A model generated the notes under the pieces. It saw only the letters and a program-made list of their open reading frames with translations. It did no database searches and was not told the DNA's origin. A program made the position numbers and the translations under genes. 46,587 nt of DNA from Myxococcota bacterium (GTDB taxonomy: Bacteria > Myxococcota > JAJVIH01): positions 1 to 46,587 of the forward strand of contig JAJVIH010000064.1 in assembly GCA_022072125.1 (NCBI GenBank), in the 5' to 3' direction. Positions 3,759-43,899 of the stretch are shown here, in pieces. Every line of letters starts with the position of its first letter. Position 1 is the first letter of the stretch.

Positions 3759-6700
3759 ATGCCACAGGTTGGAAAAGAGGCCCTATCGCAATTCATTAGA
3801 ACCGAATGTCTTCGTCTGCTCAGGCTGAACCTGAGCCCTGATGCCCAGGCTTTCCAACAAGAAAGAACGGCCGCTGGCATGCCACCCGTACAGCCCCCCC
3901 GTCCTGGCCTTGAATACCTGGCCCAAGCCGGTGAGGAATGGCAGGCGGAGAAGATCGCGGACCTCTCGGACACCTTCGGCACCGCCGTTGTCATCGGCGA
4001 CCGCTACACGAATCAGGTGGGCCAGGAACGATTTCGGGAGATCGAACTTGTCAATCACCTGACCACTGCTCCGCAGGGCTCCTTCCTTGTTGAATCCCAG
4101 TTTGACGTTGGACCTGCTTTCGAGGGCGCACTGGGGATCGCAGGATACAGGCAGAACTATGGCTTGAATTATTCCCGGCTACGGCCCGACCTAATTGAAG
4201 TACTGCCACCCACTTCGAACATCGACCGGTATGTCACACCAGCCGGCGCGGTACTGTGGCTGGCCGCTGACGACCATCGGATCAAACTCCGGGTCATCGA
4301 CATCAAACTCACGGCTGAACCATCTCCTTCATATTTCGCGGAAGTCACCTATTACTCCATGGCCTTGGCTGGATGGCTCGCTGATCAGGGCTTGGACAAT
4401 CGCTATGTGGTCGTTCCGGATGCCGCAATCTGGCCTGGTTCGCACGATGCCTCATGCTTGGTGCGGACTTGCCGGGAGATCGAGGATCAAGGAGGCACTC
4501 CGACTTACGTGCAGATGTGGGATGCGATGCAGGAAGACCTCGAGGCAGTACCCTTCGAGGTGTTCGTCGGGAGAGTCAAGCACTTCTTCATGGCCGATCT
4601 TCCCAGGGCTTTCGCATGTCCCTGGCAGCAACACCCCTGGCACGTGGACAACAGGTGCAAGGGATGTGATTACCTTGGCTACCCGTGGATTGATCGAAAC
4701 GGCCAGCCGACTGCTGATCCTCTTCACTGCATGCCGACTGCTGCTCAGACCGACCATCTCAGCAGAGTCGCGTTCATTTCTCGTGGGGCTTCCGCCGCCC
4801 TGAGTGACCAAGGGATATCGGATGTGTCGGCGTTGGCGCAGCTTCAACCGAACTCCACCATTTTCAATGCACACTACTCACTCAGAGCGACACGCAATGT
4901 CGTAGCGGGCAGAGCGACATCCCTTCAAGCCCAGCAATCGGCGATACCGCCACAGAGCGGCACCTCCGGGGTCATGCCCAAATATGCAGACCTACACATT
5001 TACCTTTCGGTCGATTTTGACCTCGGCAGTGCCATCACGTTCTCCTTGGGTGTGAAGGGCTTTTGGGTCGAGCCCCAGCCGTTTGGATATGTTGGCCAGA
5101 GAGCCAACCATCCCTATGGACCGCATACGCACGTGATCGACCAGAAGGACCTGCCCGTTGAGCGCCGGGAACTCTTGGCGTTCCTGAACAACATCAACGC
5201 AATCTTGACGGATGCCCGAAACCGCAACGCGGACACGACGGTCCAGTTCTATATCTGGGATTCAGTCCAGTACAAGCATCTCACGCGGATCATCGGCCGC
5301 CATTTGCAGGCAATCCTCGCCGACCAAACAATCCAACATCTCGCCTGGCTGTTTCCGCCAGAGGAGCTGTTGCCCAACGCTGCCATGGAAACGCGGAGGT
5401 CGCCGATCACCATTGTTCGCGAGGTCGTGCGGACTTTGCTCGCGGCCCCGATTCCTCATTATTACACGCTCTTTCATACGGCCCGTGTTTACCACCAGGC
5501 GTCTTTGCCCCAGCAGGTGGCGGCGTTCTCGGTACACCCGCTGTTTGAAGACACGCTGAGCGACCAGATTCCGAGTGAACGGGCCCATGAAATCTGGGCG
5601 CGGGTGACACGGCCAAGATCATGGTCTGACCAACTTGTGACCCTGCGTGAAACCGTGACAAAGCAACTCGGCGCTCTCGAGGCAATCACCAGGCGACTCG
5701 AAGAGGATCTTCGGACCACCCTCCAGCAGATTGCTCCGCAAATCCGCATAGAGCCGCCTCAACGACAATCGGGAATCAGTTTTGACGGGCAGTTGTGGTA
5801 TGGATTCGCGCGACTCAACGCAGCCCTTGGCGAACTGGAGGTTCACCAAATCAGGGCCATGCCACCAGAGGAGCGTGAGGCCAGGTATCGCAGCGCACGA
5901 CTGACGCGTCGTCTTACCGGTGCTGCAGAGACGGCAGCGCTGGCCCAGTTGGGGATCGCGCAACGTCCGAGGATGCGGGTCTACGAGATGATGCCGGAGT
6001 CAAAAGAAGTGAAGGCGCGCGAGGGGGATTTCAGCTTTGCCCTGGTTCCCGAGAACATGCCCGGCCTTCTTGACAGGTCGCTCCAAGTGGTAACACAGGG
6101 AACTCCATTGGAACCGCCCAATGGGTCCGGATGGCGAACTTACATGGAGACCGCAACAGGGGTCCGAATTGTTGCTATCGACCGCGACGCTGGCCTGATC
6201 GCTGTCCTTCCCAACAACCGCTATCCAACGATGCTTGACGATCTGGAGCAACAAGGACTGGCGGATTTCAGTCAAGACGTTGTTCTCGATCCTGTGTGGG
6301 TCGACACCTTCACAAAGAAGTTGCGAGAGACATTGCATGCCATCGGCAATCCTCCGAATGCTCGGAACAACGCCCTTGTGCGTAGGGCGGTGGGACTGAC
6401 CACAAGGCGCAGTGGCCGGCAGACTCCTGGAAGCCCTGCAGCAGACCTATTGTGGTCCGGCAACACTCTGGCGAACACGGCTGTTGCCAGAAACCTGCCA
6501 GGGATCAGGCAGCAACTTGAGCAAAATGGAATATCCCTCAATCAGTCTCAGTGGGCGGCGTGGGAGGCATCGCTTAGCCACCGTCTTCAAATCGTTTGGG
6601 GTCCTCCTGGAACAGGGAAGAGCCGGACACTCCGAGCGGTGGTGGTCGGCGCGGTTGTTGATGCGGTGCAGCGCAACATCCCTTTGCGCCTTCTGGTCTG

Positions 6701-8048
6701 TGCTCCCACGTACAACGCTCTCGACAACGTCCTGTTCGAATCGGTGGCTGACATCAGTCAGATGGTCCAGCATCCCGATCTGCAATGTGTGCGCCTCCGC
6801 TCCAGTTACCGGCCAATCGACCAGAACGTTCCTGCAGGTCTCGACCTGGAACTGAACAAATGGGATCCCACTATTGCGGTACAGCAGCTACGGCAGCGCC
6901 TGGTAAATGGCACGGGCATCACGGTGGTGGGTGCTACCCCGGAGCAGACGCACAACCTTCTGGTGACTGGAAACGCCGCCGCCCGTCAGGAATTCTTCGA
7001 TTGCATCATTCTCGATGAAGCGTCGCAGGTGGATGTTGCCCATTCGATCCTTCCGTTTGCGTCTCTGGCAGCAGATGGAGTCGTTGTGGTCGCAGGCGAT
7101 CCAAAGCAATTGCCACCAATCCACCAAGCGAAAGCGCCAGTCGGTCTCGAAGCGATGGTTGGCTCGGTCTACAGCTTTTTTGAACAGCTCCACCAAGTGC
7201 AGCCCGCCATCCTGGAAGAGAATTATCGCTCGAGTCGCGTGATCGTCGAGTTGGCCCACGAAGCTGGCTACGACAGGGCGCTCACGAGTTATTCGCCCGA
7301 TATGCGGACTGATATCATTACACCTTTTCCGACCGTTCAGGCTCCCGCTGGATGGCCACAGACACTCTTCTGGACGCCAGAATGGGCATCGCTGCTTGAT
7401 CCTGACGCTCCAGTCAGTTGCTTTGTCTATCCCGAGGGCCGCAGCAGTCAATGGAATCCTTTTGAGGCGGATTCGGTGGCGGCCCTGGCCTTGCTGCTGT
7501 ATGGCCGCCTTGGCAACCGGCTCCTAAATGAAAGAGCCCCAGCGTCTGGTGCCGTGATAGCCGCTTCGCACACCCCATACACGATGGATGAGTTCTGGCG
7601 CAGTGGGATTGGCATCGTTACCCCACATCGGGCTCAACAGGCATTGATCGTCGCGAGGCTCCAGCAGGTGTTCGGGCCATTAGGCGCTTCGAATCAACTT
7701 ATCCGGGACGCTGTGGACACGGTCGAGCGGTTTCAAGGGCAGCAGCGTGATGTAATCATCGCCTCCTTTGCCCTGGGTGACCAGGATGCCATTCAGGACG
7801 AGGACGAATTCCTGATGAGCCTTAATCGGTTCAATGTGATGACATCACGCGCCAGAGCAAAACTGATCACCCTGGTGACGCAAGAGGTGGTGAACCATCT
7901 CTCCGGAGAACTGGACATCCTCCGTCAGAGTCGCCTGCGTAAGGTGTATGTCGAATCGTTCTGCAGTAATTCTCGGCCAATGACCTTGGGCCATATCTCG
8001 GCGAATGCCGTCCTCCAGGTGGATGGGATGTTCAAGTGGAGGCAGTGA
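3759..8048 (+). CDS. RecB-like nuclease / RNase H-like / SF1 helicase fusion protein
   Basis: A 1429-residue protein with a GGAGGA ribosome site at 3744-3749. The N-terminal domain resembles RecB/Cas4-type PD-(D/E)XK nucleases: D144 in RPDLIE, D181-I-K183 in VIDIKLT, followed by YYSMALAGWL. Cysteines C287, C300, C303 and C324 are spaced like the iron-sulfur clusters of Dna2/Cas4/AddB nucleases. The middle (about 410-620, HIYLSVDFD and FYIWDSVQYKHL) resembles the RNase H-like domain found in TM0106-type nucleases but lacks most acidic residues. The C-terminal half is an SF1B (Upf1/Dna2-like) helicase: Walker A GPPGTGKS at 948-955, DEAS at 1086-1089, GDPKQLPPI, and VERFQGQQRDVIIAS plus NVMTSRAR near the end. 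It probably unwinds and cuts DNA for the defence operon. Confidence 0.9.
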   Translation: MPQVGKEALSQFIRTECLRLLRLNLSPDAQAFQQERTAAGMPPVQPPRPGLEYLAQAGEEWQAEKIADLSDTFGTAVVIGDRYTNQVGQERFREIELVNHLTTAPQGSFLVESQFDVGPAFEGALGIAGYRQNYGLNYSRLRPDLIEVLPPTSNIDRYVTPAGAVLWLAADDHRIKLRVIDIKLTAEPSPSYFAEVTYYSMALAGWLADQGLDNRYVVVPDAAIWPGSHDASCLVRTCREIEDQGGTPTYVQMWDAMQEDLEAVPFEVFVGRVKHFFMADLPRAFACPWQQHPWHVDNRCKGCDYLGYPWIDRNGQPTADPLHCMPTAAQTDHLSRVAFISRGASAALSDQGISDVSALAQLQPNSTIFNAHYSLRATRNVVAGRATSLQAQQSAIPPQSGTSGVMPKYADLHIYLSVDFDLGSAITFSLGVKGFWVEPQPFGYVGQRANHPYGPHTHVIDQKDLPVERRELLAFLNNINAILTDARNRNADTTVQFYIWDSVQYKHLTRIIGRHLQAILADQTIQHLAWLFPPEELLPNAAMETRRSPITIVREVVRTLLAAPIPHYYTLFHTARVYHQASLPQQVAAFSVHPLFEDTLSDQIPSERAHEIWARVTRPRSWSDQLVTLRETVTKQLGALEAITRRLEEDLRTTLQQIAPQIRIEPPQRQSGISFDGQLWYGFARLNAALGELEVHQIRAMPPEEREARYRSARLTRRLTGAAETAALAQLGIAQRPRMRVYEMMPESKEVKAREGDFSFALVPENMPGLLDRSLQVVTQGTPLEPPNGSGWRTYMETATGVRIVAIDRDAGLIAVLPNNRYPTMLDDLEQQGLADFSQDVVLDPVWVDTFTKKLRETLHAIGNPPNARNNALVRRAVGLTTRRSGRQTPGSPAADLLWSGNTLANTAVARNLPGIRQQLEQNGISLNQSQWAAWEASLSHRLQIVWGPPGTGKSRTLRAVVVGAVVDAVQRNIPLRLLVCAPTYNALDNVLFESVADISQMVQHPDLQCVRLRSSYRPIDQNVPAGLDLELNKWDPTIAVQQLRQRLVNGTGITVVGATPEQTHNLLVTGNAAARQEFFDCIILDEASQVDVAHSILPFASLAADGVVVVAGDPKQLPPIHQAKAPVGLEAMVGSVYSFFEQLHQVQPAILEENYRSSRVIVELAHEAGYDRALTSYSPDMRTDIITPFPTVQAPAGWPQTLFWTPEWASLLDPDAPVSCFVYPEGRSSQWNPFEADSVAALALLLYGRLGNRLLNERAPASGAVIAASHTPYTMDEFWRSGIGIVTPHRAQQALIVARLQQVFGPLGASNQLIRDAVDTVERFQGQQRDVIIASFALGDQDAIQDEDEFLMSLNRFNVMTSRARAKLITLVTQEVVNHLSGELDILRQSRLRKVYVESFCSNSRPMTLGHISANAVLQVDGMFKWRQ

Positions 8049-8172
8049 GAATGGTGCCTTCAAGGCTCCTTGAGTCTGACAATACCGGTAAGCCAGGGCG
8101 GGGGCATATTGCCCTGTCATCTGCAGCATCCTGGTCCGGAGTGCAAGAGCCGATGGATTTCCGGAGGTGGCA

Positions 8173-9039
8173 ATGAGTTTCTCAAAAGAAGTCGTTGATG
8201 CGGCACTCGTTGCCTCGGGACGCTGCTGTTGCATCTGCCACAAGTTCTGTGGCGTCAGGATCGAGACACACCACATTCGGCCTGTTTCAAAAGGGGGAGA
8301 CGATACCTTCGAGAACTGCATTCCCCTCTGTTTTGATTGCCACGCGGAGGTTGAACACTACAACGATCAGCATCCAAGAGGACGTAAGTTTTCCGAGAGC
8401 GAACTCCGGAAGCATCGTGACACATGGTTCTCGAAAGTCGAAGAGATGAATACGCTCACGCCGCCTCCCAGCGATTCGCCCCAGGTCATTCAGGCGGTTT
8501 CAGGAAATGGCAACATGGTTGCCGGGCGCGATTTGAACATTCGCACCGAACGGGTGGTCCGCAAGACGGTTGTTCAGACCGATCCGGGCGGCAAGCACAT
8601 TTCAAACACGACGGCCCGCAAAATCCAGGACCTGGTGAAGGATTATATCGATATCCACACGACGGCGGGCAAAGACACACAGCGAGCTGCGCAACGGATT
8701 TGGAGCAGCTTGAAAAACGAATTCAACGTGACCAGCTACAAGGAGATTCCCGCCCAGGATTCCGACCGTGCGATTCAGTGGCTTCAGGCTCAGGTCGCGA
8801 TGGCAAGACCCAAAATCCGCCGGAAAGCCCCTGGTAAATGGAAGGAGAGTCTATACAAGCCCATCTACGCACGCGCGGGCGAGCTTGGGATTTCCAAAGA
8901 CGACCTCTATCTGCTGGCGCAAGAGCGATTGGCCCTCAAGAAACCGATCCGATCCCTGAAGGAACTGACGCAGCGCGATCTTCAGCGGCTTCACCATGTT
9001 ATGATCTATGAAGTCAAGAAGTCCGGGAGCAAGCCATGA
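8173..9039 (+). CDS. HNH endonuclease domain protein with GRDLNI motif and helical C-terminal domain
   Basis: A 288-residue protein; the ATG at 8173 has GGAGG at 8163-8167, so I prefer it to the GTG six bases upstream. Residues about 15-60 form an HNH nuclease: a CCCICHKFC zinc knuckle, then ETHHIRPVSKGG, ENCIPLCFDCH. A linker contains GNGNMVAGRDLNI, a short motif I have seen in many bacterial conflict proteins of unresolved role. The C-terminal part (KEIPAQDSDRAIQWLQAQV) resembles the ORF6C domain of phage antirepressors, weakly. It lies 124 bp after the helicase on the same strand and may be a separately promoted accessory nuclease of the defence island. Missing membrane segments and signal peptide indicate a cytoplasmic protein. 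Confidence 0.82.
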   Translation: MSFSKEVVDAALVASGRCCCICHKFCGVRIETHHIRPVSKGGDDTFENCIPLCFDCHAEVEHYNDQHPRGRKFSESELRKHRDTWFSKVEEMNTLTPPPSDSPQVIQAVSGNGNMVAGRDLNIRTERVVRKTVVQTDPGGKHISNTTARKIQDLVKDYIDIHTTAGKDTQRAAQRIWSSLKNEFNVTSYKEIPAQDSDRAIQWLQAQVAMARPKIRRKAPGKWKESLYKPIYARAGELGISKDDLYLLAQERLALKKPIRSLKELTQRDLQRLHHVMIYEVKKSGSKP

Positions 9040-21124: not shown

Positions 21125-21433
21125 ATGCGATACATCAAGAGTATAATTGTCCCGTCCTTCGACCGTTTCATCGCTCCGCTGCTTCGGTTTCTTGTCGGCC
21201 GGGGAACGGTGGTTTGCTCCCGAGATGCTCACGAGGCCATCTCCTTCACGCTCATACTGACGGATGTGCTGTCTCTGGCGTTCGACGTCTCGCGCTTCTG
21301 CGGGAGTTGGTCACGCGCGAAGGCGCTCCTTGGATGGTCTCCTCGAGTGCCGCTTGCAGAGGACTTCGCACAGTTCATTGGCGAGTTCTGTCGCCTGTTC
21401 GAGCGCTCACGTCCGCAGGTGGGCACATTGTGA
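21125..21433 (+). pseudogene. Chimeric ORF ending in a sugar-epimerase C-terminal fragment
   Basis: The frame opens at ATG 21125 (MRYIKSIIVPSFDRFIAPLL). Its last third, RAKALLGWSPRVPLAEDFA then QFIGEFCRLF, closely resembles the extreme C-terminus of NAD-dependent nucleotide-sugar epimerases/dehydratases. The Rossmann and catalytic parts are absent. I read it as the leftover end of an epimerase gene that once lay upstream of the glycosyltransferase gene. It overlaps the next start by a few bases. Confidence 0.5.
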
Positions 21434-23781
21434 AGGTTGTCCAAGTCATCCACGGATATCCCATGCGGTATAACGCGGGATCGGAGATATACACGCAGAC
21501 ACTCTGCCACGGCCTAACCAAACGGCACGAGGTCCACGTCTTCACGCGCGAGGAGGATGCATTCGCGCCCGACTTCCGCTTGCGCACCGAACAGGATGAG
21601 GACGATCCGCGAGTGATGCTCCATATCGTCAACAATCCTCGGTTCAGGGACCGCTACCGCGCGACGGACATTGACCAGCGCTTCGCGGGGGTGCTCGACT
21701 GCGTAAAACCCGACATTGTGCATATCGGCCACCTCAACCATCTCTCGATCTCGCTACTTCGGGAGGCCGCGCTGCGGGATATCCCAATCGTCTTTACGCT
21801 CCACGACTACTGGTTGATGTGCCCACGCGGCCAGTTCATGCAAATGTTCCCGGAGGACCCGGCGAACCTCTGGGCGTCCTGCAGCGGGCAAGAGGACCGC
21901 AAGTGCGCGGAGTGTTGCTACGCCCGCTATTTCAGCGGCGCCCCTGACGAGCATACTGCCGACGTCAAGTATTGGACTGACTGGGTTTCTCGACGCATGC
22001 GCCACGTCCGCGAGATGGCCGCGCTTGTGGACATCTTCGTCGCTCCAGCGCGGTACCTCCACGACCGCTTCCGCGACGACTTCGGGCTCCCCGAGAGCAA
22101 GCTCGTATACCTCGACTACGGTTTTGCGCGCGAGCGCATGAGCGCGCGACAACGACCAACGGGAGAGCCCTTCACATTCGGCTACATCGGCACGCACATC
22201 CCTGCGAAGGGAATCCATGATCTCATTCGCGCTTTTGGGAAGGTCAGCGGAAACACGCGCCTTCGCATCTGGGGAAGGCCGCGAGGACAAAACACGGAGG
22301 CACTGCGGGACCTTGCCGGTTCTCTGCCTGCCAGCGTCGCGGAGAGAGTCGAGTGGTTGCCAGAGTACAAGAACCAAGAGATCGTCCGTGATGTCTTCGA
22401 CTGCTGTGACGCGATCATCGTCCCGTCCATCTGGGTCGAAAACTCGCCTCTCGTGATCCACGAGGCACAGCAGGCGCGGGTGCCGGTGATTACGGCGAAC
22501 GTCGGCGGCATGGCCGAATACGTGCGGCACGAGGTCAATGGCCTCCTCTTCGAGCACCGTTCCGTGGACGCCCTCGCCGAGCAGATGCAGCGACTCGCCG
22601 ATGACCCGGATTTCGCGGTGCGACTCGGAGCGCGCGGGTACCTGTTCAGTGAGTCGGGAGACATCCCCGACATAGACTCGCACGTACGCGACATCGAGAC
22701 ACTCTACAAGCAGGTGATCGGCCGCCATGCGTCTTCGCGGGTCGAGCGCCTCCCTGGACCGTGGCGCATCACCTTCGACACGAACCCCGATCTCTGCAAT
22801 CTGAGCTGCATCATGTGCGAGGAGCACTCGCCGCACAGTTCGCTCCATATCCGCCGTAAAGAGGAGGGGCGGGAGCGCCGGTTGATGCCATTCGAGATGA
22901 TCGAGCGCGTCGTGGCCGAAGCAGCGCCACGAGGCCTACGGGAGATCATCCCCTCGACGATGGGCGAGCCGCTCCTCTACGAGCAGTTCGAGGGCATCAT
23001 CGAACTCTGTCGGCGCTACGGTGTAAAGCTGAACCTCACGACCAACGGTACGTTTCCCCGGCTCGGCGCGAAGTCCTGGGCCGAACTCATTGTGCCCGTC
23101 GCCTCGGACGTGAAGATCTCGTGGAATGGCGCGACAAAGACGACCCATGAAAGCATCATGCTCGGCAGCCGCTGGGAGAAAGTGGTCGATAACGTTCGTG
23201 AGTTCATTGGCGTGCGCGACGCACATGCCGCCGCTGGTGGTCATCGTTGCAGGGTCACGTTTCAACTCACGTTCCTCGAGGCCAACGTTGATGAACTCGC
23301 CGCGATGGTGAGGCTCGCGATTGAACTCGGAGTAGACCGTGTGAAAGGCCACCATCTCTGGGCTCACTTCAACGAGATCCAGGACCAATCGATGCGACGC
23401 AGCCCCGAGTCCATCGCACGGTGGAATCTGGCCGTGCTTGCTGCTCGAGAGGTGGCGGTCGAGCGGCGCTTACCGAACGGGAAGCACATCCTTCTCGAAA
23501 ACATCTTCCTCCTCGGCGCTTCGGCGACTGAGGATCTCGCCCCGGGCGGGCCGTGCCCCTTCCTCGGCCAGGAGGCGTGGGTGAGCGCGCAGGGACGCTT
23601 CGACCCTTGCTGCGCCCCCGATGCGCAGCGTCGAACGCTGGGTGAGTTCGGCAACCTTAACGAGCAGAGCTTCATGGACATCTGGGACGGCGACAAGTAC
23701 CGCGAATTCACCGCGACGTACCGAAACCGCCGGCTCTGCCTCGGCTGCAACATGCGCAGGCCCACGGGAGGCGCCTCGTGA
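21430..23781 (+). CDS. Glycosyltransferase family 4 fused to radical SAM/SPASM-like enzyme
   Basis: A 783-residue two-domain protein; I choose the GTG at 21430 because homology-like sequence (VVQVIHGYPMRYNAGSEIYT) starts there. Residues 1-375 are a GT-B glycosyltransferase of GT4 type: FTLHDYWLMCPRGQ, FGYIGTHIPAKGIHDLI and the donor-site SIWVENSPLVIHEAQQARVP. Residues about 440-783 form a radical SAM domain with the [4Fe-4S] motif CNLSCIMC (C456, C460, C463), then TTNGTF and a C-terminal cysteine-rich part (C709, C727, C728, C770, C773) resembling SPASM auxiliary clusters. Such enzymes modify peptides or sugars by radical chemistry. It overlaps the WG-repeat gene (GTGA), so they are coupled. 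The substrate is unknown. Confidence 0.85.
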   Translation: MKVVQVIHGYPMRYNAGSEIYTQTLCHGLTKRHEVHVFTREEDAFAPDFRLRTEQDEDDPRVMLHIVNNPRFRDRYRATDIDQRFAGVLDCVKPDIVHIGHLNHLSISLLREAALRDIPIVFTLHDYWLMCPRGQFMQMFPEDPANLWASCSGQEDRKCAECCYARYFSGAPDEHTADVKYWTDWVSRRMRHVREMAALVDIFVAPARYLHDRFRDDFGLPESKLVYLDYGFARERMSARQRPTGEPFTFGYIGTHIPAKGIHDLIRAFGKVSGNTRLRIWGRPRGQNTEALRDLAGSLPASVAERVEWLPEYKNQEIVRDVFDCCDAIIVPSIWVENSPLVIHEAQQARVPVITANVGGMAEYVRHEVNGLLFEHRSVDALAEQMQRLADDPDFAVRLGARGYLFSESGDIPDIDSHVRDIETLYKQVIGRHASSRVERLPGPWRITFDTNPDLCNLSCIMCEEHSPHSSLHIRRKEEGRERRLMPFEMIERVVAEAAPRGLREIIPSTMGEPLLYEQFEGIIELCRRYGVKLNLTTNGTFPRLGAKSWAELIVPVASDVKISWNGATKTTHESIMLGSRWEKVVDNVREFIGVRDAHAAAGGHRCRVTFQLTFLEANVDELAAMVRLAIELGVDRVKGHHLWAHFNEIQDQSMRRSPESIARWNLAVLAAREVAVERRLPNGKHILLENIFLLGASATEDLAPGGPCPFLGQEAWVSAQGRFDPCCAPDAQRRTLGEFGNLNEQSFMDIWDGDKYREFTATYRNRRLCLGCNMRRPTGGAS

Positions 23782-26898: not shown

Positions 26899-26929
26899 TT
26901 GACATTAGTGCAGTGCGCGTGTTTTCTAT
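26899..26929 (+). promoter_or_regulatory. Candidate promoter of the TIR-like gene
   Basis: A consensus TTGACA (26899-26904) is followed 17-19 bases later by a poor -10 (TTTTCT or TTCTAT, 26922-26929). If used, transcription would begin almost at ATG 26937, giving a leaderless or nearly leaderless mRNA. Confidence 0.3.
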
Positions 26930-26936
26930 CTGGAGA

Positions 26937-28067
26937 ATGAATGACCTTCTCGACTATCTGGCTAATGCCAGGCAGCAATGTGAACGCGCCGCACAGCAAA
27001 TGAAGGCTGAGGATATCCTCGCCATCCAGCGGCGGCTCATGCGCGCCATTGAACAAGTTGGCCTCGCGTGGTCGGGGTCCTGTATCGGTTATCAAGCGCG
27101 CGTCTATATCAGGGACTTTCAGCGACCCGGTCCGGTGGATCGCTTCGACGACAATTGGAGATCGTACGCTCACCATCGCATAGGTCTTGGCTGGGTAGAA
27201 TACAACGATGACGAGGTGAAGGACCACGTCAATCAATTGGCGGAGGTCCCGGAGGAGGATTGGCAGCGCATCAAGACCACGGCGGCTTCTGCCGCTGCGG
27301 TCTTCAGCGCCGTGCAGAGCGAGATCGTACCGACGCTCGATGCGGTTCTCGCTGAATATGATGACGAGAGAATAAGGGAAAAGCGCAATGATATTGCCAG
27401 ACTGAAGAGCTATCATAATATGCCCGATATTGCAGAGAAATTACAAAAAACTCAATACATGATGAAAACTAGTGACTTGAACGCACTGAAGGAAGGCTGG
27501 CGAATCCCACCCCATATTCGGATGAAAGCGGATCTCGATGAACAATTCTCCTACGGCAAGCAAGTAGAGGAACTCGCAAAGGAGATCCGATATATCTTCA
27601 CTTACCTGAAACAGCGGCAACAGACGAAGGGCAAGTTGGCCGTGCGCACGGACGGAAAGATATTCATTGGACACGGCCAGTCAAAGGTGTGGCTTGAACT
27701 CAAAAACTTCGTCCAGGATGATCTTCATCTCCAGTATGAGGAGTTCAACCGGGAGCCGCCGGCCGGCAAAGCCACCAAGGAACGGTTGGAGGAAATGCTC
27801 GGCGCTTCGTCCTTCGCGTTCCTGGTAATGACCGCCGAGGATGAGACCGCTGACGGGAAACTACAGGCCCGGGCCAACGTGATCCACGAAATCGGACTGT
27901 TCCAGGGGCGACTTGGGTTCAATCGCGCGATCATGCTGCTCGAAGAGGGATGCGAGGAGTTTTCGAATATCACCGGCATCAATCAAATCCGGTTCCCAAA
28001 GGGAAATATCAGGGCAATATTCGAGGAAATCCGCCGCGTGCTTGTGCGGGAGAAAATTCTTCCCTGA
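26937..28067 (+). CDS. TIR-like (PF10137-type) predicted NAD-cleaving effector
   Basis: A 376-residue protein from ATG 26937 (GTG 26913 would add eight residues; the only ribosome-like site, GGAG, is too close, so the start is uncertain). The last 140 residues match the TIR-like nucleotide-binding domain of Cap12/PF10137 proteins: GKIFIGHGQSKVWLELKNFV, SSFAFLVMTAEDE and NVIHEIGLFQGRLGFNRAIM, with the likely catalytic glutamate E318. Residues 1-230 are helical and unrecognised; FDDNWRSYAHHRIGLGWVEY may form a sensor region. Related domains destroy NAD+ in CBASS and other antiphage systems. No cyclase or STING gene is adjacent, so it may act alone. The base composition is lower in GC than the flanks, suggesting transfer. 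Confidence 0.8.
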   Translation: MNDLLDYLANARQQCERAAQQMKAEDILAIQRRLMRAIEQVGLAWSGSCIGYQARVYIRDFQRPGPVDRFDDNWRSYAHHRIGLGWVEYNDDEVKDHVNQLAEVPEEDWQRIKTTAASAAAVFSAVQSEIVPTLDAVLAEYDDERIREKRNDIARLKSYHNMPDIAEKLQKTQYMMKTSDLNALKEGWRIPPHIRMKADLDEQFSYGKQVEELAKEIRYIFTYLKQRQQTKGKLAVRTDGKIFIGHGQSKVWLELKNFVQDDLHLQYEEFNREPPAGKATKERLEEMLGASSFAFLVMTAEDETADGKLQARANVIHEIGLFQGRLGFNRAIMLLEEGCEEFSNITGINQIRFPKGNIRAIFEEIRRVLVREKILP

Positions 28068-38174: not shown

Positions 38175-39293
38175 ATGTCTGAGGGGCGCGACATCCTCGT
38201 CGCCGGCGGCTACGGTGTGGTTGGCCGCCGCATTGCATCGCGATTGGCGCCGGAATTCCCAGGCCGTGTTGTGATCGCCGGACGCGACGAGCGGAAGGCG
38301 CTCGCGTTTTCCAACGAACTCGGAAATGGCAGCCGTGCACGCCGGATTGATGTGGACGATTCCGCCTCTGTTTCAAGCGCGCTGGACGGTATCGGCACAG
38401 TAATGACATGCGTCGCGCAGCACGAGTTTCATCTTCTCCGGACCGCCATCGCACGTGGACTCGCCTATACGGACATCGCCCCCCGGCTGGCCTTCTGGCG
38501 CGGTGCGGAGGAAATGGAGTCGGAGGCGAGGCGGACCGGCGCCCGAATCGTCCTCGGCGCAGGTCTTTCGCCGGGGATCTCGAACATGATGGCCGCGAAC
38601 CTTGCAAGGATGGTCGAGCGAGTTGATCAGATTGAAACCGCGATTCTTCTGAGCCTCGGCGATGAGTACGGGCCGGACTCACTCCATCATGTTCTTGAAG
38701 CTGTGATATCGCCGTTCAGCGTGGTCTTGGACGGCCGCCGCGAGACAGCAACCCCGTTTTCGGATGGGCGGCGCGTCGTGTTCCCTGAACCTCTTGGCGA
38801 GCGAATCGCTTACCTGTTTCCTTGGTCGGACGCCGTCTATTACCCGAAGACCATCGGCGCCCAAACGTCGCTTGGAAGGTTCGCGCTTGAGCCGGCGTGG
38901 ACCGGCGGGCTTGCTGCGTTGCTTGTGCGTCTTGGCGCCCGGAACTGGTTGCGGCGCGGCGGAGTCCTGCAAGGTCACCAGCGCGCGATTGATGGTTTGA
39001 AGCGGATCTACGCGGGAAGTGATCGCTTCGCGCTCGTCGTCACGATCCGGAGCGGAGAGCGAGTGGTCATGATGAATCTCGCGGGACGGCGCCAGGCTGA
39101 CGTGACGGCCGACAGCGCCGCCGAGTTTGCGCGAATGCTCGCGCGTTCAGAAGCCGGGCAACCGGGAGTCTGGCTCCCGGAACAGGTGATTCCGCACGAG
39201 CGCTTCTTCACCCGGCTCGCCGCTTGGGGATGGAAGGCGGCGGTTGAGGAGCAGCCTGCTGACCCGTCCCTGAAGACTTCTGGGCATCGGTAG
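38175..39293 (+). CDS. Saccharopine dehydrogenase-like NAD(P)-binding protein
   Basis: A 372-residue protein with an N-terminal Rossmann fold: ILVAGGYGVVGRRIASRLA (GxGxxG variant GGYGVVG) and VVIAGRDERKALAF. VLGAGLSPGISNMMAANLAR is typical of the saccharopine dehydrogenase/trans-acting enoyl reductase-like group. The C-terminal catalytic region is not assigned to a reaction. Such stand-alone members are often uncharacterised oxidoreductases. Start ATG 38175 follows GGAG. A 43-residue frame upstream (38054-38182) overlaps it by 8 bp but looks like chance. The gene is not obviously tied to its neighbours. Confidence 0.85.
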   Translation: MSEGRDILVAGGYGVVGRRIASRLAPEFPGRVVIAGRDERKALAFSNELGNGSRARRIDVDDSASVSSALDGIGTVMTCVAQHEFHLLRTAIARGLAYTDIAPRLAFWRGAEEMESEARRTGARIVLGAGLSPGISNMMAANLARMVERVDQIETAILLSLGDEYGPDSLHHVLEAVISPFSVVLDGRRETATPFSDGRRVVFPEPLGERIAYLFPWSDAVYYPKTIGAQTSLGRFALEPAWTGGLAALLVRLGARNWLRRGGVLQGHQRAIDGLKRIYAGSDRFALVVTIRSGERVVMMNLAGRRQADVTADSAAEFARMLARSEAGQPGVWLPEQVIPHERFFTRLAAWGWKAAVEEQPADPSLKTSGHR

Positions 39294-39395
39294 AGAGTTT
39301 GTTGGATAAACAACTCCAGCGATACGACGCCATCATCACCTGCGGATACCCCGCTGGATAGCGGGTACAACCAGCAGAACCCGTTGCGCCCCGAT

Positions 39396-39458
39396 CCGGC
39401 CGCGGAAGCAGCAAATATCAGCGGCGCCAGGTGACGGAATCGGCGCGCGGGCGCTGGT
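39396..39458. repeat. 63-bp direct repeat, left copy
   Basis: It matches 42094-42156 with two mismatches, both in the first 27 bases; the last 36 bases are identical. The two copies bracket the HTH and reverse transcriptase genes. On the minus strand it reads RFRHLAPLIFAASAAG. Confidence 0.9.
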
Positions 39459-39566
39459 GCGCCGCCGCCCCGGGCCGGCAACGAAGGACGTGGGCGGGCT
39501 GGCGGCGACACACAAACGATCTTACTTGAGCAGATGCGATGTTTTGGCTAGTTTTTTGTGGAGAAT

Positions 39567-39800
39567 ATGCGCCATGAACAACAGGTCATCGCCGCGAACC
39601 TCAAGAAAATTCGCGGATTCAAAGACATCCTGCAGCACCGGATCGCAGAGGCGGCGGGCCCATCGCGCGGCGTCTACCATATCATCGAGGGCGGCAAGGC
39701 GCAGCCCCGCGTGCATAACCTCATTGCCACCACCAACGCTCCCAAGACCCTCGTACATGAACTGCTGGAGCACGCCAAGCGTATCTGGCCCCGTCCGTAG
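39567..39800 (+). CDS. XRE-like helix-turn-helix protein upstream of the RT gene
   Basis: A 77-residue protein (80 if GTG 39558 is used). The sequence VIAANLKKIRGFKDILQHRI followed by GVYHIIEGGKAQPRVHNLIA has the layout of an XRE/HTH_3 domain: helix, turn, recognition helix, then the E-x-GK-x-x-P loop. ATG 39567 has GGAG only three bases upstream. The RT gene starts 8 bp after its stop, so they are co-transcribed, and this protein is a likely repressor of the pair. A few positions deviate from the usual motif (AAGPSRG for AGLSRG, LIATTNAPKTL for LIxIAxALxxx), which may mean divergence. Confidence 0.7.
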   Translation: MRHEQQVIAANLKKIRGFKDILQHRIAEAAGPSRGVYHIIEGGKAQPRVHNLIATTNAPKTLVHELLEHAKRIWPRP

Positions 39801-39808
39801 CCGACTCA

Positions 39809-41914
39809 ATGAAGCTGAAGCTGCTCGCCACGCCTTCGAACCTGGAGCTTGCATGGCGTCGGATCACGACGGGCGGCAACCACCAGTACAAGCGCTTCTT
39901 CCGCCCGCTGTACGTGGCGTACGAGATTGCCCTCAATGACAACCTCGAGGATCTGCGGAGGCGTCTCGAAGGCGGGTCGTTCAGACCGCGCCAGCCTGAG
40001 CGCATCTACCTCCCGAAGGCTTTGGGCCTGCATCGCCCACTAAGCCTCCTCCACATCGAAGACCAGATCGTTCTTCAGGTCTTCGCCAACTTAGCTGCGA
40101 AGAAGCTCCATCTGCGCCGGGCGCCGCTGCAGTTCAGGGTCGTCTTCAGCAACATCCCCCAGAGAGACAGCAGCATCTTCTTCTTCAAGCGCTGGCAGTA
40201 CACCCACGCCGCGTTCCGGCGGCGCATTCGCGAGCACTATGCCGGCGGCCTGTGCTGGGTCGGCGACTTCGACCTCTCAGCCTTCTACGATACCATCTCG
40301 CACAACCTCCTGCTCAAGACGATCTACCCGCGCACGCGCACGAACAGCGAGATGGAGTTGTTTCGTTCGTGCCTTGCGGCGTGGAGTTCGGAGAAGGCGG
40401 CGTCACAGCACGGCCACGGCATCCCACAGGGACCGTTGGCTTCGGACTTCCTTGCCGAATGCTTCTTGCTACCCATCGATGAGAAACTCCAGAAGACACC
40501 CGGGTACACTCGGTATGTTGACGATGTTCGATTGTTCGGGAAGACCGAGGACGACGTTCGTGCGGCTATCTTCCAGCTTGAGTGGTGCTGCCGGGAGCGC
40601 GGGCTGGTCCCGCAGACGGGGAAGTTCGCAGTGAAGCAGGCGACGACGGTGCAGGATGCGATGGGTATGCTTCCCAGCATTGCCGACCCACAGCGGTTGA
40701 ACGGTTCTTCACGGGAGCCTCTGGCAGGGGAGCGTGCCCGATCCCTCTTCCTCTCATCGCTCGGCGGGGATCCATCTCGCGTCCAGGACAAGACGCGGCT
40801 CCGCTACGTGCTCTATCATGCTGAGCCGGACACCGAAATACTCAATCTCGTGTGCAGTCTCGTTCCGCACCATCCCGAGCACGCTGAAGCCTTCTTCACG
40901 TACCTCGCTCGGTTTTCGCCCAATATGCAGATCATGAGGCTCTGCCTTGATCTGATCAGAAAGAGTCCGTACGCCTACGTGCGTGGCGAGGCGTGGATGA
41001 ACCTTGCAGGCCAACCCGAGTCCATACGCATGCTCGACAACACGACGCGCAGCCGCTTGGTGCAGGATGCGATCACCATCGCAAGGAAGTCGCCTAAGGA
41101 CTTCATGGAGATGTTGGGAGTCTGCCATTTTCTTTCTGTGGCCGAGGTGGTCGAAGGAAAGCGATATAGCCAGTTCCTCAGGTACAAGCGCGCGCTGCTT
41201 CAGGCCTTCGTCGCGGAGGTGCTGCCCGATAGCGCGTTCGCCGCCGGCGGGGTCGTGAATGCATACCTGCGGAAGCGCGCCTTCGAGCCTGGAATCTCGA
41301 TCTGCACGCGCATCCACGCGATGGGACTTTGTCCCGCGACGTTCAACATCGAGCCATCAGCCTTGCCGTCGCAGGTGCGCAACACGATGAAGGCTCTCCG
41401 CACAATCGCCGTGAAGGGCGGCCCGGTCGATCCGATCGCCGAACTGATCGAGAATCGCTACAAGGTCAACTCGGCGCCGAAGTCTTGGTGCACACTGCTC
41501 GGGAATGACTACGTGCATGCGCTTGGTCTCCTGAAGAGCGCCGACGCAGCGTTCAACATAGACAGGTCCCACTGGCTCGCGTACCAGAACTCGTTTCACA
41601 ACGCGATCTTCCTCGCGCTTCAGCGGCAATTCAAAGCGATGGGGCATGCAGCGGCATGCACGACCCACTCTCGCAACGGGGAGTTGGTCGCCTTCGGCGT
41701 CATGCTGGACGAGAGCAACACGTTCTCGAAGGAATTTCCGATCGTCGCTGACTGCTTCCGTGCGATGAACGACCGACGGAACCACCTTCCGAATTCGCAC
41801 CCGTACGACAAGAAGAGTGCGACCCCGTCGAAGCACCTGAGCGCGCAGGAGCGTAACCGCTTCGTCCGCGACCTCAAGGCCGCGCTGCCCGTATTCGTGG
41901 GGCTGATGCCATGA
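39809..41914 (+). CDS. Reverse transcriptase with C-terminal HEPN-like domain (AbiA-like)
   Basis: A 701-residue protein. The RT domain occupies residues about 1-290: FDLSAFYDTISHNLL with catalytic D153/D155, HGIPQGPLASDFLAECF, and YTRYVDDVRLF with Y236-V-D-D239. No group II maturase domain is present. Residues about 300-560 are helical repeats, as in Abi-type RTs. Near the C-terminus MNDRRNHLPNSHPYD contains R657-N-x5-H664, a textbook HEPN ribonuclease motif (R-N-x(4-6)-H). RT plus helical repeats plus HEPN is the architecture of AbiA, a lactococcal abortive-infection protein. I infer phage defence by abortive infection. No retron RNA or diversity-generating repeat was found next to it. Confidence 0.85.
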   Translation: MKLKLLATPSNLELAWRRITTGGNHQYKRFFRPLYVAYEIALNDNLEDLRRRLEGGSFRPRQPERIYLPKALGLHRPLSLLHIEDQIVLQVFANLAAKKLHLRRAPLQFRVVFSNIPQRDSSIFFFKRWQYTHAAFRRRIREHYAGGLCWVGDFDLSAFYDTISHNLLLKTIYPRTRTNSEMELFRSCLAAWSSEKAASQHGHGIPQGPLASDFLAECFLLPIDEKLQKTPGYTRYVDDVRLFGKTEDDVRAAIFQLEWCCRERGLVPQTGKFAVKQATTVQDAMGMLPSIADPQRLNGSSREPLAGERARSLFLSSLGGDPSRVQDKTRLRYVLYHAEPDTEILNLVCSLVPHHPEHAEAFFTYLARFSPNMQIMRLCLDLIRKSPYAYVRGEAWMNLAGQPESIRMLDNTTRSRLVQDAITIARKSPKDFMEMLGVCHFLSVAEVVEGKRYSQFLRYKRALLQAFVAEVLPDSAFAAGGVVNAYLRKRAFEPGISICTRIHAMGLCPATFNIEPSALPSQVRNTMKALRTIAVKGGPVDPIAELIENRYKVNSAPKSWCTLLGNDYVHALGLLKSADAAFNIDRSHWLAYQNSFHNAIFLALQRQFKAMGHAAACTTHSRNGELVAFGVMLDESNTFSKEFPIVADCFRAMNDRRNHLPNSHPYDKKSATPSKHLSAQERNRFVRDLKAALPVFVGLMP

Positions 41915-42093
41915 GGCCGGGCAACTCCTGAACAATCCGCAATGGTTCGGGTTTACATTGGCAGCAGCCTGCCGGTCCCGCCCGCCCCGCGTTCGCCGTA
42001 GCAGCGTAGCGCCGCCGTAAGCCCCGTTCCGCGCGCTCGTGATCGCATCTTGGGGGCGGCCGGATGCTCTTGAAGCGCCGCTTGCGCACCGGG

Positions 42094-42156
42094 CCGGCCG
42101 CGGAATCCGCAAATATCAGCGGCGCCAGGTGACGGAATCGGCGCGCGGGCGCTGGT
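42094..42156. repeat. 63-bp direct repeat, right copy
   Basis: It matches 39396-39458 with two mismatches. A GGCGCCGG/CCGGCGCC inverted repeat (42168-42175 with 42191-42198) follows immediately. Confidence 0.9.
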
Positions 42157-42293
42157 TTCTGGCTGCCGGCGCCGGAATTCTCGCTTTTGACCGGCGCCAT
42201 GGGCTGCGCATGCGCGCCGGTCTGGCCGTTGGTTTTGGGGCTGGGGTGGCGCCTGGACTCCACCGCAAGGCCTCCGGCGTCAAGGAACCGTTA

Positions 42294-42330
42294 GCTCCCT
42301 GTCACGCCAGGTCTGGGAGCGGCCTACTAT
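42294..42330 (+). promoter_or_regulatory. Candidate dyad and -10 box of the copper operon
   Basis: GCTCCC (42294-42299) and GGGAGC (42315-42320) form a 6-bp dyad, followed by TACTAT (42325-42330), a good -10 sequence. A dyad just upstream of the -10 would suit a MerR- or two-component-type activator. No convincing -35 was found. Confidence 0.25.
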
Positions 42331-42393
42331 CATCATGAACCGTCCAAGGTTCGCCAGAACGGTCAACCACCCCAGCCTGATGGAGGTCACGCC

Positions 42394-43899
42394 ATGACGC
42401 GCATCCGCTCGATTCACGCCGCCCTTTTTGCGGGCGCTCTCCTCGCAGGCTGCAGTCGCGACATGGGCGGCATGGGCGACATGGGCGGGATGATGATGTC
42501 TCCTGACGCTGGAGACATGATGATGGTTCCTGGCGTCATGGATGTTCCCCCATCCGAAGGTCCCTTCGAGACCGTGCTGGCCAGGGATCTGGACCCGTCT
42601 CCGGATGTCGTGGAGGTCGCGCTCGAAGCGAAGGTCGCTGATGTTGAACTCGCCCCGGGGCGCCGCGTTCCGATGTGGACCTACAACGGGACCCTGCCTG
42701 GTCCCCGTATCGAGGCGCGTGTGGGTAACACGGTGCGCGTCCGTTTCAAGAATTCGCTCCCCGAAGCCACGACGATCCACTGGCACGGCGTCCGGGTTCC
42801 AGCCGCCATGGACGGCGTGCCGGCGGTGCAGTCGCCGATCGCGCCCGGTGCGGAGTTCACGTACGAGTTCGTCGTGCCTGATGCGAGCACGTTCTGGTAT
42901 CACCCCCATATCCGGTCCGATGAGCAGGTCGAGCGCGGACTCTACGGCGCGTTCGTGGTTCGCGGCGACAACGAGCCCGCGGCGACAAGCGATCGCGTCG
43001 TGGTCCTCGATGACATTCTCGTGAACGGGGATTGGACGCTGAGCGCGTTCGATCCCATGCACGCGATGGCGGGACGGCAGGGCAACCTGATCCTGGCAAA
43101 CGGGCGGGCGCGCCCGATCGCTCCGATGGAGCGCGGCGGACTTCATCGCTTTCGCTTCATCAACGCCGCCAACGCGCGATATTTCCGGCTGGCCTTGCCA
43201 GGGCATCGCCTGCTGCTGATCGGAACCGACGGCGGGCTTCTCACCGCTGCCCGCGAGGTCAACGAGGTGCTGCTCGTTCCAGGTGAACGCGCGGATGTGC
43301 TGGTGGTCATGCAAGGAGACGCGGGGACGGTTCTTGACTGGAAGTCGCTGCGATACGATCGCGGTCACGGTACGGGCGAACTCCCGGACGCCGTGGTCTT
43401 CCAATCGAGGAATGGAAGCGGCGCTCCGGTTTCGACGCCAGCGCCGCCAACCGTACTGACGAATATCGCTCCCTTGCCCGCGGCGGACGTGCGGCGCGAA
43501 CTGAGGCTGGAGGAGTCCATGAACATGAGCGGGGAGCACGGAAGTGGTCATGGCTCTGGCTCTGGGATGGGGATGGTCTTTTCGATCAACGGCCAAGTTT
43601 ATCCCAATGCCGCTCCCTTGAACGCGAAACTCGGCGCCGTCGAGGATTGGTCCATCGTCAACACGACTGAAATGGACCACCCCTTCCACCTGCATGGATT
43701 CCGGTTCCAGATCGTGTCCGGGGATGGGCAGGCGCCGGAGTTTCCCGCCTGGCGCGATTCGATCAACGTGCGCGCGGAGAAGACGACGGTGATTCGCGTA
43801 CGGCTTGAGGACCACCCGGGCGTATGGATGTTCCACTGCCATATCCTTGAACATGCTGAGCGGGGAATGATGGGCGAACTAAGGGTGGTGAAGCCATGA
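42394..43899 (+). CDS. Multicopper oxidase lipoprotein (copper tolerance)
   Basis: A 501-residue laccase-type oxidase. The N-terminus MTRIRSIHAALFAGALLAGC has a lipobox (LLAGC), so it is likely anchored in a membrane facing the periplasm. It then has a Met-rich stretch (DMGGMGDMGGMMM) as in CueO/CopA copper-binding segments. The copper ligands are complete: HWHG (H129, H131), FWYHPH, HPFHLHG and the C-terminal HCHILEHAERGM with C482. A second Met/His stretch (NMSGEHGSGHG) precedes the third domain. It would oxidise Cu(I) to the less toxic Cu(II). It overlaps the next gene by 4 bp (ATGA). Confidence 0.93.
   Translation: MTRIRSIHAALFAGALLAGCSRDMGGMGDMGGMMMSPDAGDMMMVPGVMDVPPSEGPFETVLARDLDPSPDVVEVALEAKVADVELAPGRRVPMWTYNGTLPGPRIEARVGNTVRVRFKNSLPEATTIHWHGVRVPAAMDGVPAVQSPIAPGAEFTYEFVVPDASTFWYHPHIRSDEQVERGLYGAFVVRGDNEPAATSDRVVVLDDILVNGDWTLSAFDPMHAMAGRQGNLILANGRARPIAPMERGGLHRFRFINAANARYFRLALPGHRLLLIGTDGGLLTAAREVNEVLLVPGERADVLVVMQGDAGTVLDWKSLRYDRGHGTGELPDAVVFQSRNGSGAPVSTPAPPTVLTNIAPLPAADVRRELRLEESMNMSGEHGSGHGSGSGMGMVFSINGQVYPNAAPLNAKLGAVEDWSIVNTTEMDHPFHLHGFRFQIVSGDGQAPEFPAWRDSINVRAEKTTVIRVRLEDHPGVWMFHCHILEHAERGMMGELRVVKP

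Follow-up and report, generated by a model that had tools for sequence, protein, structure and literature searches.

The window, that is the whole stretch of 46,587 nucleotides of Myxococcota DNA that was analysed, carries a reverse transcriptase (RT) gene preceded by a short ORF for an XRE-like helix–turn–helix (HTH) protein. The HTH ORF ends at position 39800 and the ATG of the RT follows at 39809 on the same strand, in agreement with the 8 bp spacing given in the initial annotation. Both ORFs lie between two copies of a direct repeat. The features of the locus are the following.

39384–39458, + strand: direct repeat, left copy (75 bp)
39558 (GTG) or 39567 (ATG)–39800, + strand: XRE-like HTH ORF, with the HTH part reaching up to about 39761
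39762–39808, + strand: 47 bp of GmrSD-tail homology (the last 12 codons of the HTH ORF, its stop codon and the 8 bp gap)
39809–41914, + strand: RT ORF of 701 amino acids, a putative defence reverse transcriptase of the UG19 group (PADLOC and tree; under purifying selection)
39809–40675, + strand: RT fingers/palm (residues 1–289, YVDD at 236–239; searched separately, it matches RT_UG19 at E = 1.1e-108)
40676–41470, + strand: helical region (residues 290–554; pLDDT 52–74 for residues 301–400)
41471–41911, + strand: probable HEPN domain (residues 555–701, R657-N-x5-H664)
42082–42156, + strand: direct repeat, right copy (75 bp)

The repeat that brackets the HTH and RT ORFs measures 75 bp and not the 63 bp first reported. 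Its two copies are 93% identical, with the last 48 nucleotides fully identical, and a search of the genome returned these two copies and no third. The repeat-bounded element has a saccharopine-dehydrogenase-like gene on one side and a multicopper oxidase gene on the other, and its G+C content is about 60% compared with 63–66% in the surroundings. No tRNA was found in the window, which leaves the repeats without a tRNA explanation. An integron origin was also considered and rejected: an integron integrase is absent from the genome (96% complete), where only sub-threshold tyrosine recombinases are picked up, the best of which reaches 80 bits (cut-off 265). Loci L007 and L009 contain short stretches that match the repeat; they lie within GC-rich coding regions and appear to be chance matches, and a similar short match is present in L008. 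Neither Rfam nor folding relative to shuffled sequences supports structured RNA in the repeats or their flanks. Elsewhere in the window, positions 26913–28067 encode a protein with a C-terminal TIR domain of the CAP12/Pycsar type (PF10137, E = 1.8e-23), which is another likely defence gene at about 12 kb from the RT. A further single ORF (21214–23781) encodes glycosyltransferase domains (among them GT4-conflict) together with radical SAM-SPASM domains.

The RT ORF contains the YVDD motif that had been recognized in it and matches the Pfam family RVT_1 (E = 7.9e-12). It is a clear member of the UG19 group. The PADLOC model RT_UG19 matches residues 3–694 with 460 bits (E = 3.7e-138), compared with 169 bits (E = 5e-50) for the second-best family, UG21, which is weaker by 88 orders of magnitude; UG32, UG23, UG22, UG20 and Drt8 rank behind it. 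When the search is restricted to the RT part, the ranking is again led by UG19, UG21 and UG32. The AbiA-like assignment that was originally proposed therefore has to be replaced by UG19, which is ahead of the next family by nearly 300 bits; the RT does not place the protein in AbiA, as no AbiA model is found among the 25 best PADLOC matches. In a tree of a small set of fetched RTs, to which AbiA does not belong, the window RT and its homologue from genome G071 (L012) form a pair at 100/99 that lies outside the clade with the group II intron RT. The whole chain is under constraint, since dN/dS between the window protein and this closest homologue (76% identity) is 0.22 overall, 0.17 for the RT part and 0.29 for the C-terminal part. 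The window protein is about 140 residues longer than the UG19 profile, and its C-terminal 128 residues correspond to only 68 profile positions, so that, within UG19, the HEPN part may represent an extension. A report of antiviral activity or of any other tested function of UG19 was not found in the literature searched. Taken as a whole, the find is real and for the most part ordinary, a further UG19 protein whose tail is probably HEPN.

Residues 555–701 probably form a HEPN domain, an assignment in which we have fairly good confidence. The RN-x4-6-H motif occurs once in the RT protein, as R657-N658-x5-H664 with the letters RNHLPNSH (residues 657–664). On its own this motif is weak evidence, because shuffling the C-terminal 147 amino acids produces RN-x5-H by chance in 3.4% of cases, and shuffling the complete protein does so in 8%. 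An AlphaFold2 model built from two sequences for residues 555–701 has a pLDDT of 53 and places helices, at low confidence, at 12–27, 32–56, 90–104 and 125–143 in domain numbering, with the motif starting at 103. The R-x4-6-H motif thus follows helix 3 of a helical domain in this low-confidence model, and the succession of helices is like that of HEPN domains. No HEPN family of Pfam matches the C-terminus at E values up to 10, and Foldseek alone returns nothing significant for the model. With VIA-align, about a dozen HEPN entries are among the top 30, headed by 5yep_C (Z = 7.7, r.m.s.d. 4.2, 121 aligned) and 7bxo_G (Z = 7.6, r.m.s.d. 4.0, 120 aligned) and followed by the HEPN toxins 8xdj_A (Z = 6.9), 7ae9_C (6.5), 1wty_C (6.0) and 2hsb (5.6); all Z scores are under 8, and designed or unrelated four-helix bundles reach the same values. 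Of the C-terminal HEPN motif reported initially, the letters are in place, while the domain around them is a low-confidence prediction of the model. The helical repeats assigned to the same chain are seen as a helical region (residues 290–554), again at low confidence: the full-length model has a pLDDT of 39 and its RT part is uninterpretable.

Four close RT loci were found, the window included, in a search that covered genomes of this phylum; two of them are intact and two decayed. No RT homologues came from scanning genome contigs with a single sequence or viral contigs with an alignment, and plasmid and phage records hold distant RTs only. The RT of G071 is the only other intact homologue fetched, and its DNA homology with the window extends from the RT start codon to about the RT stop codon, with flanks that are unalike. 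A different ORF (L011 10855–11676) lies upstream of this RT and overlaps its start; it has no match in Pfam or PADLOC. The last part of this ORF resembles the C-terminus of restriction proteins of the HNH type, so the RT may sit behind different nuclease tails. In a Labilithrix MAG (L013, 6001–6846) codons 36–323 of the UG19 RT are deleted in frame and the C-terminus is lost, the match to the window RT ending near residue 564; a Cap4-nuclease fragment is found downstream of this decayed RT on the opposite strand. A Kofleriaceae MAG (L014, 6001–6201) retains codons 1–67 of a UG19 RT, followed by an IS66-type element (6237–8528). Directly before this RT is an intact GmrSD gene (GmrSD_N, PF03235, E = 8.4e-39; GmrSD_C, PF07510, E = 3.1e-27), the TGA of which overlaps the RT ATG (ATGA). 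Further upstream are genes that, read from their ORFs alone, resemble modification and restriction subunits.

These homologous loci bear directly on the origin of the HTH ORF, which is best explained, from the alignments, as the product of a deletion or recombination event that joined an XRE start to a GmrSD tail at about 39761/39762. The homology between the window and L014 reaches upstream past the RT to position 39762, where L014 5954–6000 agrees with the window at 42 of 47 bases, and this upstream limit lies in the GmrSD 3′ end of L014. The last 12 codons of the HTH ORF correspond to the GmrSD tail in the same frame, with the residues LLEHAKRIWPRP in both the window and L014, after which TAG follows in the window and PPTP-TGA in L014. 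The GmrSD tail is seen again before the RT of L013 (AKRGEKQLEIAKRIWPRPQSNP). Because the HTH ORF ends in the GmrSD tail, in the same frame, and this tail is also kept in L013, the HTH–RT pair is likely to be a secondary fusion. The HTH may have brought a promoter or regulator; on this comparison it is not a conserved antitoxin.

The HTH part itself is matched weakly by Pfam (HTH_19, 14 bits against a cut-off of 30, E = 0.038), while PADLOC gives capH (E = 6.8e-6) and control_protein, and there is weak likeness to Y4mF antitoxins and HigA. None of G071, L013 and L014 has an HTH gene upstream of the RT. Among 195 genomes of the phylum a single homologue of the HTH is found at E < 1e-6, an XRE-peptidase fusion with no RT near it in the stretch read; plasmids contain no homologue and phages contain only weak XRE repressors. 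The idea that the RT has an HTH partner of its own, on which the initial annotation had been built, is thus contradicted: G071 has none, GmrSD or its tail takes the place upstream of the RT in L014 and L013, and the only HTH homologue in the phylum stands without an RT, which is the observation that the annotation itself had named as telling against it.

We favour, with moderate confidence, a one-protein Abi-type defence RT of the UG19 group with a HEPN-like tail, for which a GmrSD gene was the ancestral neighbour and the HTH ORF is a secondary junction. The protein would be built from three parts, with the RT first, then a helical domain of the Abi type and, at the C-terminus, a HEPN-like domain. 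Upon infection it would most likely synthesise DNA as Abi polymerases do. By analogy with AbiA this would be a protein-primed and template-free synthesis, with the polymerase activity itself providing the protection. The HEPN part would dimerise the protein and might also bind RNA or cut it; an active RNase is here the alternative to a structural role. UG19 membership, purifying selection, the GmrSD tail and the lack of an HTH gene next to the other RT copies are direct results of the analysis, whereas we infer the HEPN fold, the DNA polymerisation and the role in defence. The ancestral upstream gene would have been a GmrSD (type IV restriction) gene with its stop codon overlapping the RT start. 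In the window this gene would have been lost save for 12 terminal codons, which continue the frame of a short XRE HTH. The HTH ORF would then provide no more than a new promoter or regulator.

The last point can be taken further. The HTH could be a new and working autoregulator, comparable to the control proteins of restriction systems, that was gained together with its promoter through the fusion and is not an antitoxin. This concerns the HTH alone and is compatible with the reading that we favour. We consider it possible but lean against it: the tight spacing, the open frame, the control_protein and capH matches and the upstream region that the cassette has of its own before the HTH, following the repeat, speak for it, but a sigma-70-like promoter was not found in 39290–42400 (the search covered this promoter type only), the HTH score is well below the Pfam cut-off, and prolines seen in the sequence where the recognition helix begins and within the helix after it may mean decay. 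The toxin–antitoxin style of control suggested initially goes a step further, with the HTH repressing the promoter, neutralising the RT-HEPN protein or both, and with RNA cleavage by the HEPN domain stopping growth when the HTH is missing. Two ORFs on one strand 8 bp apart, the likeness of the HTH to capH, Y4mF antitoxins and HigA and the R-x6-H motif in the RT protein are what such a pair would look like. Nevertheless we regard it as improbable, given that three related RTs (G071, L013 and L014) do without the HTH, that the 3′ end of the HTH ORF derives from a GmrSD gene, that the sole homologue of the HTH in the phylum is a peptidase fusion without an RT, and that no conserved antitoxin gene stands beside the RT. 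It is weakened further by the data on AbiA, whose HEPN domain shows no RNase activity in a published in vitro assay and whose defence does not behave like induced death (PMC11077055). The locus thus calls for caution, as a tight HTH–RT pair that resembles toxin–antitoxin control can be a splice onto the tail of another gene.

Two other explanations concern the RT itself. It could copy a noncoding RNA encoded beside its gene, as do the class 2 systems DRT2, DRT9 and DRT10, and its core does resemble those of group II and other templated RTs. We find this quite unlikely, as the flanks are not conserved relative to the 76% identical copy (one intact pair compared), there is no match to an Rfam family and the intergenic stretches fold no better than their shuffles. 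Alternatively, the locus could be a decaying remnant without function. Two of the four close homologues are indeed broken, one by an internal deletion (L013) and one cut by IS66 (L014), and a fusion gene lies upstream in the window; the full-length frame, the intact catalytic motifs and the dN/dS of 0.22 of the window RT argue the opposite, and make a remnant very improbable.

Several known systems share parts with this family. In the case of the GmrSD type IV restriction enzymes, L014 has a complete gene that overlaps the start of the RT, and the tail persists in L013 and in the window, whereas the window itself has no GmrSD gene at the locus and only its last 12 codons. As close homologues are few, the coupling is seen at one complete and two partial loci. 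In genome G118 (L046 5770–9405, minus strand) an RT of the Drt8 group is followed by a GmrSD_N gene of the NsnA-like kind and by a RiboL-PSP HEPN gene, possibly a three-gene RT–GmrSD–HEPN set. Like the window family, this stretch brings RT, GmrSD-type and HEPN parts together on one strand; unlike it, it uses three separate genes, an RT of the DRT8 group and an NsnA-kind GmrSD_N, and the genes may belong to adjacent systems. The three parts are thus found together twice, as GmrSD plus an RT with a probable HEPN tail and as three genes in G118. HEPN domains have been described in operons with ParB/DUF262-type nucleases, and the AbiA-CTD with restriction systems (PMC3710099). Our literature search did not find a paper describing UG19 with GmrSD. 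A speculative proposal, and one that we consider unlikely, is that the UG19 RT-HEPN protein is the second component of a GmrSD-coupled defence, in which overlapping genes would encode a modification-dependent restriction enzyme and an Abi-like polymerase with HEPN, in joint action or as a fallback, and of which G118 would be a split version.

The helical region provides a link to UG15/DRT4: with VIA-align, window residues 300–441 align with residues 304–437 of 9l9s_B (Z = 7.6, r.m.s.d. 3.0, 119 aligned), a Z score that common helical repeats also reach. We know of no HEPN tail in UG15/DRT4.

The closest parallel is AbiA. Both proteins combine an RT, a helical domain and a C-terminal HEPN domain (probable in the window) in one chain, and the R-x6-H spacing in the window RT (RNHLPNSH) is equal to that in AbiA from Lactococcus (RNSNPVSH; PMC11077055), with the letters partly the same. 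The two differ in RT group, and the AbiA-CTD profile (HEPN_AbiA_CTD, PF18732) has no match in the window, the genome or the phylum, although no positive control gave a match either and a diverged CTD is possible. Of the AbiA-like character claimed at the outset, domain order and motif therefore stand, while membership of the AbiA group does not. In AbiA the HEPN domain is needed for polymerisation (PMC11077055). Our comparison suggests that an AbiA-like RT-HEPN architecture has arisen or persisted in a second RT group, and the role of the HEPN domain in such polymerases, either as a dimer interface or as a nuclease, can now be compared between two lineages.
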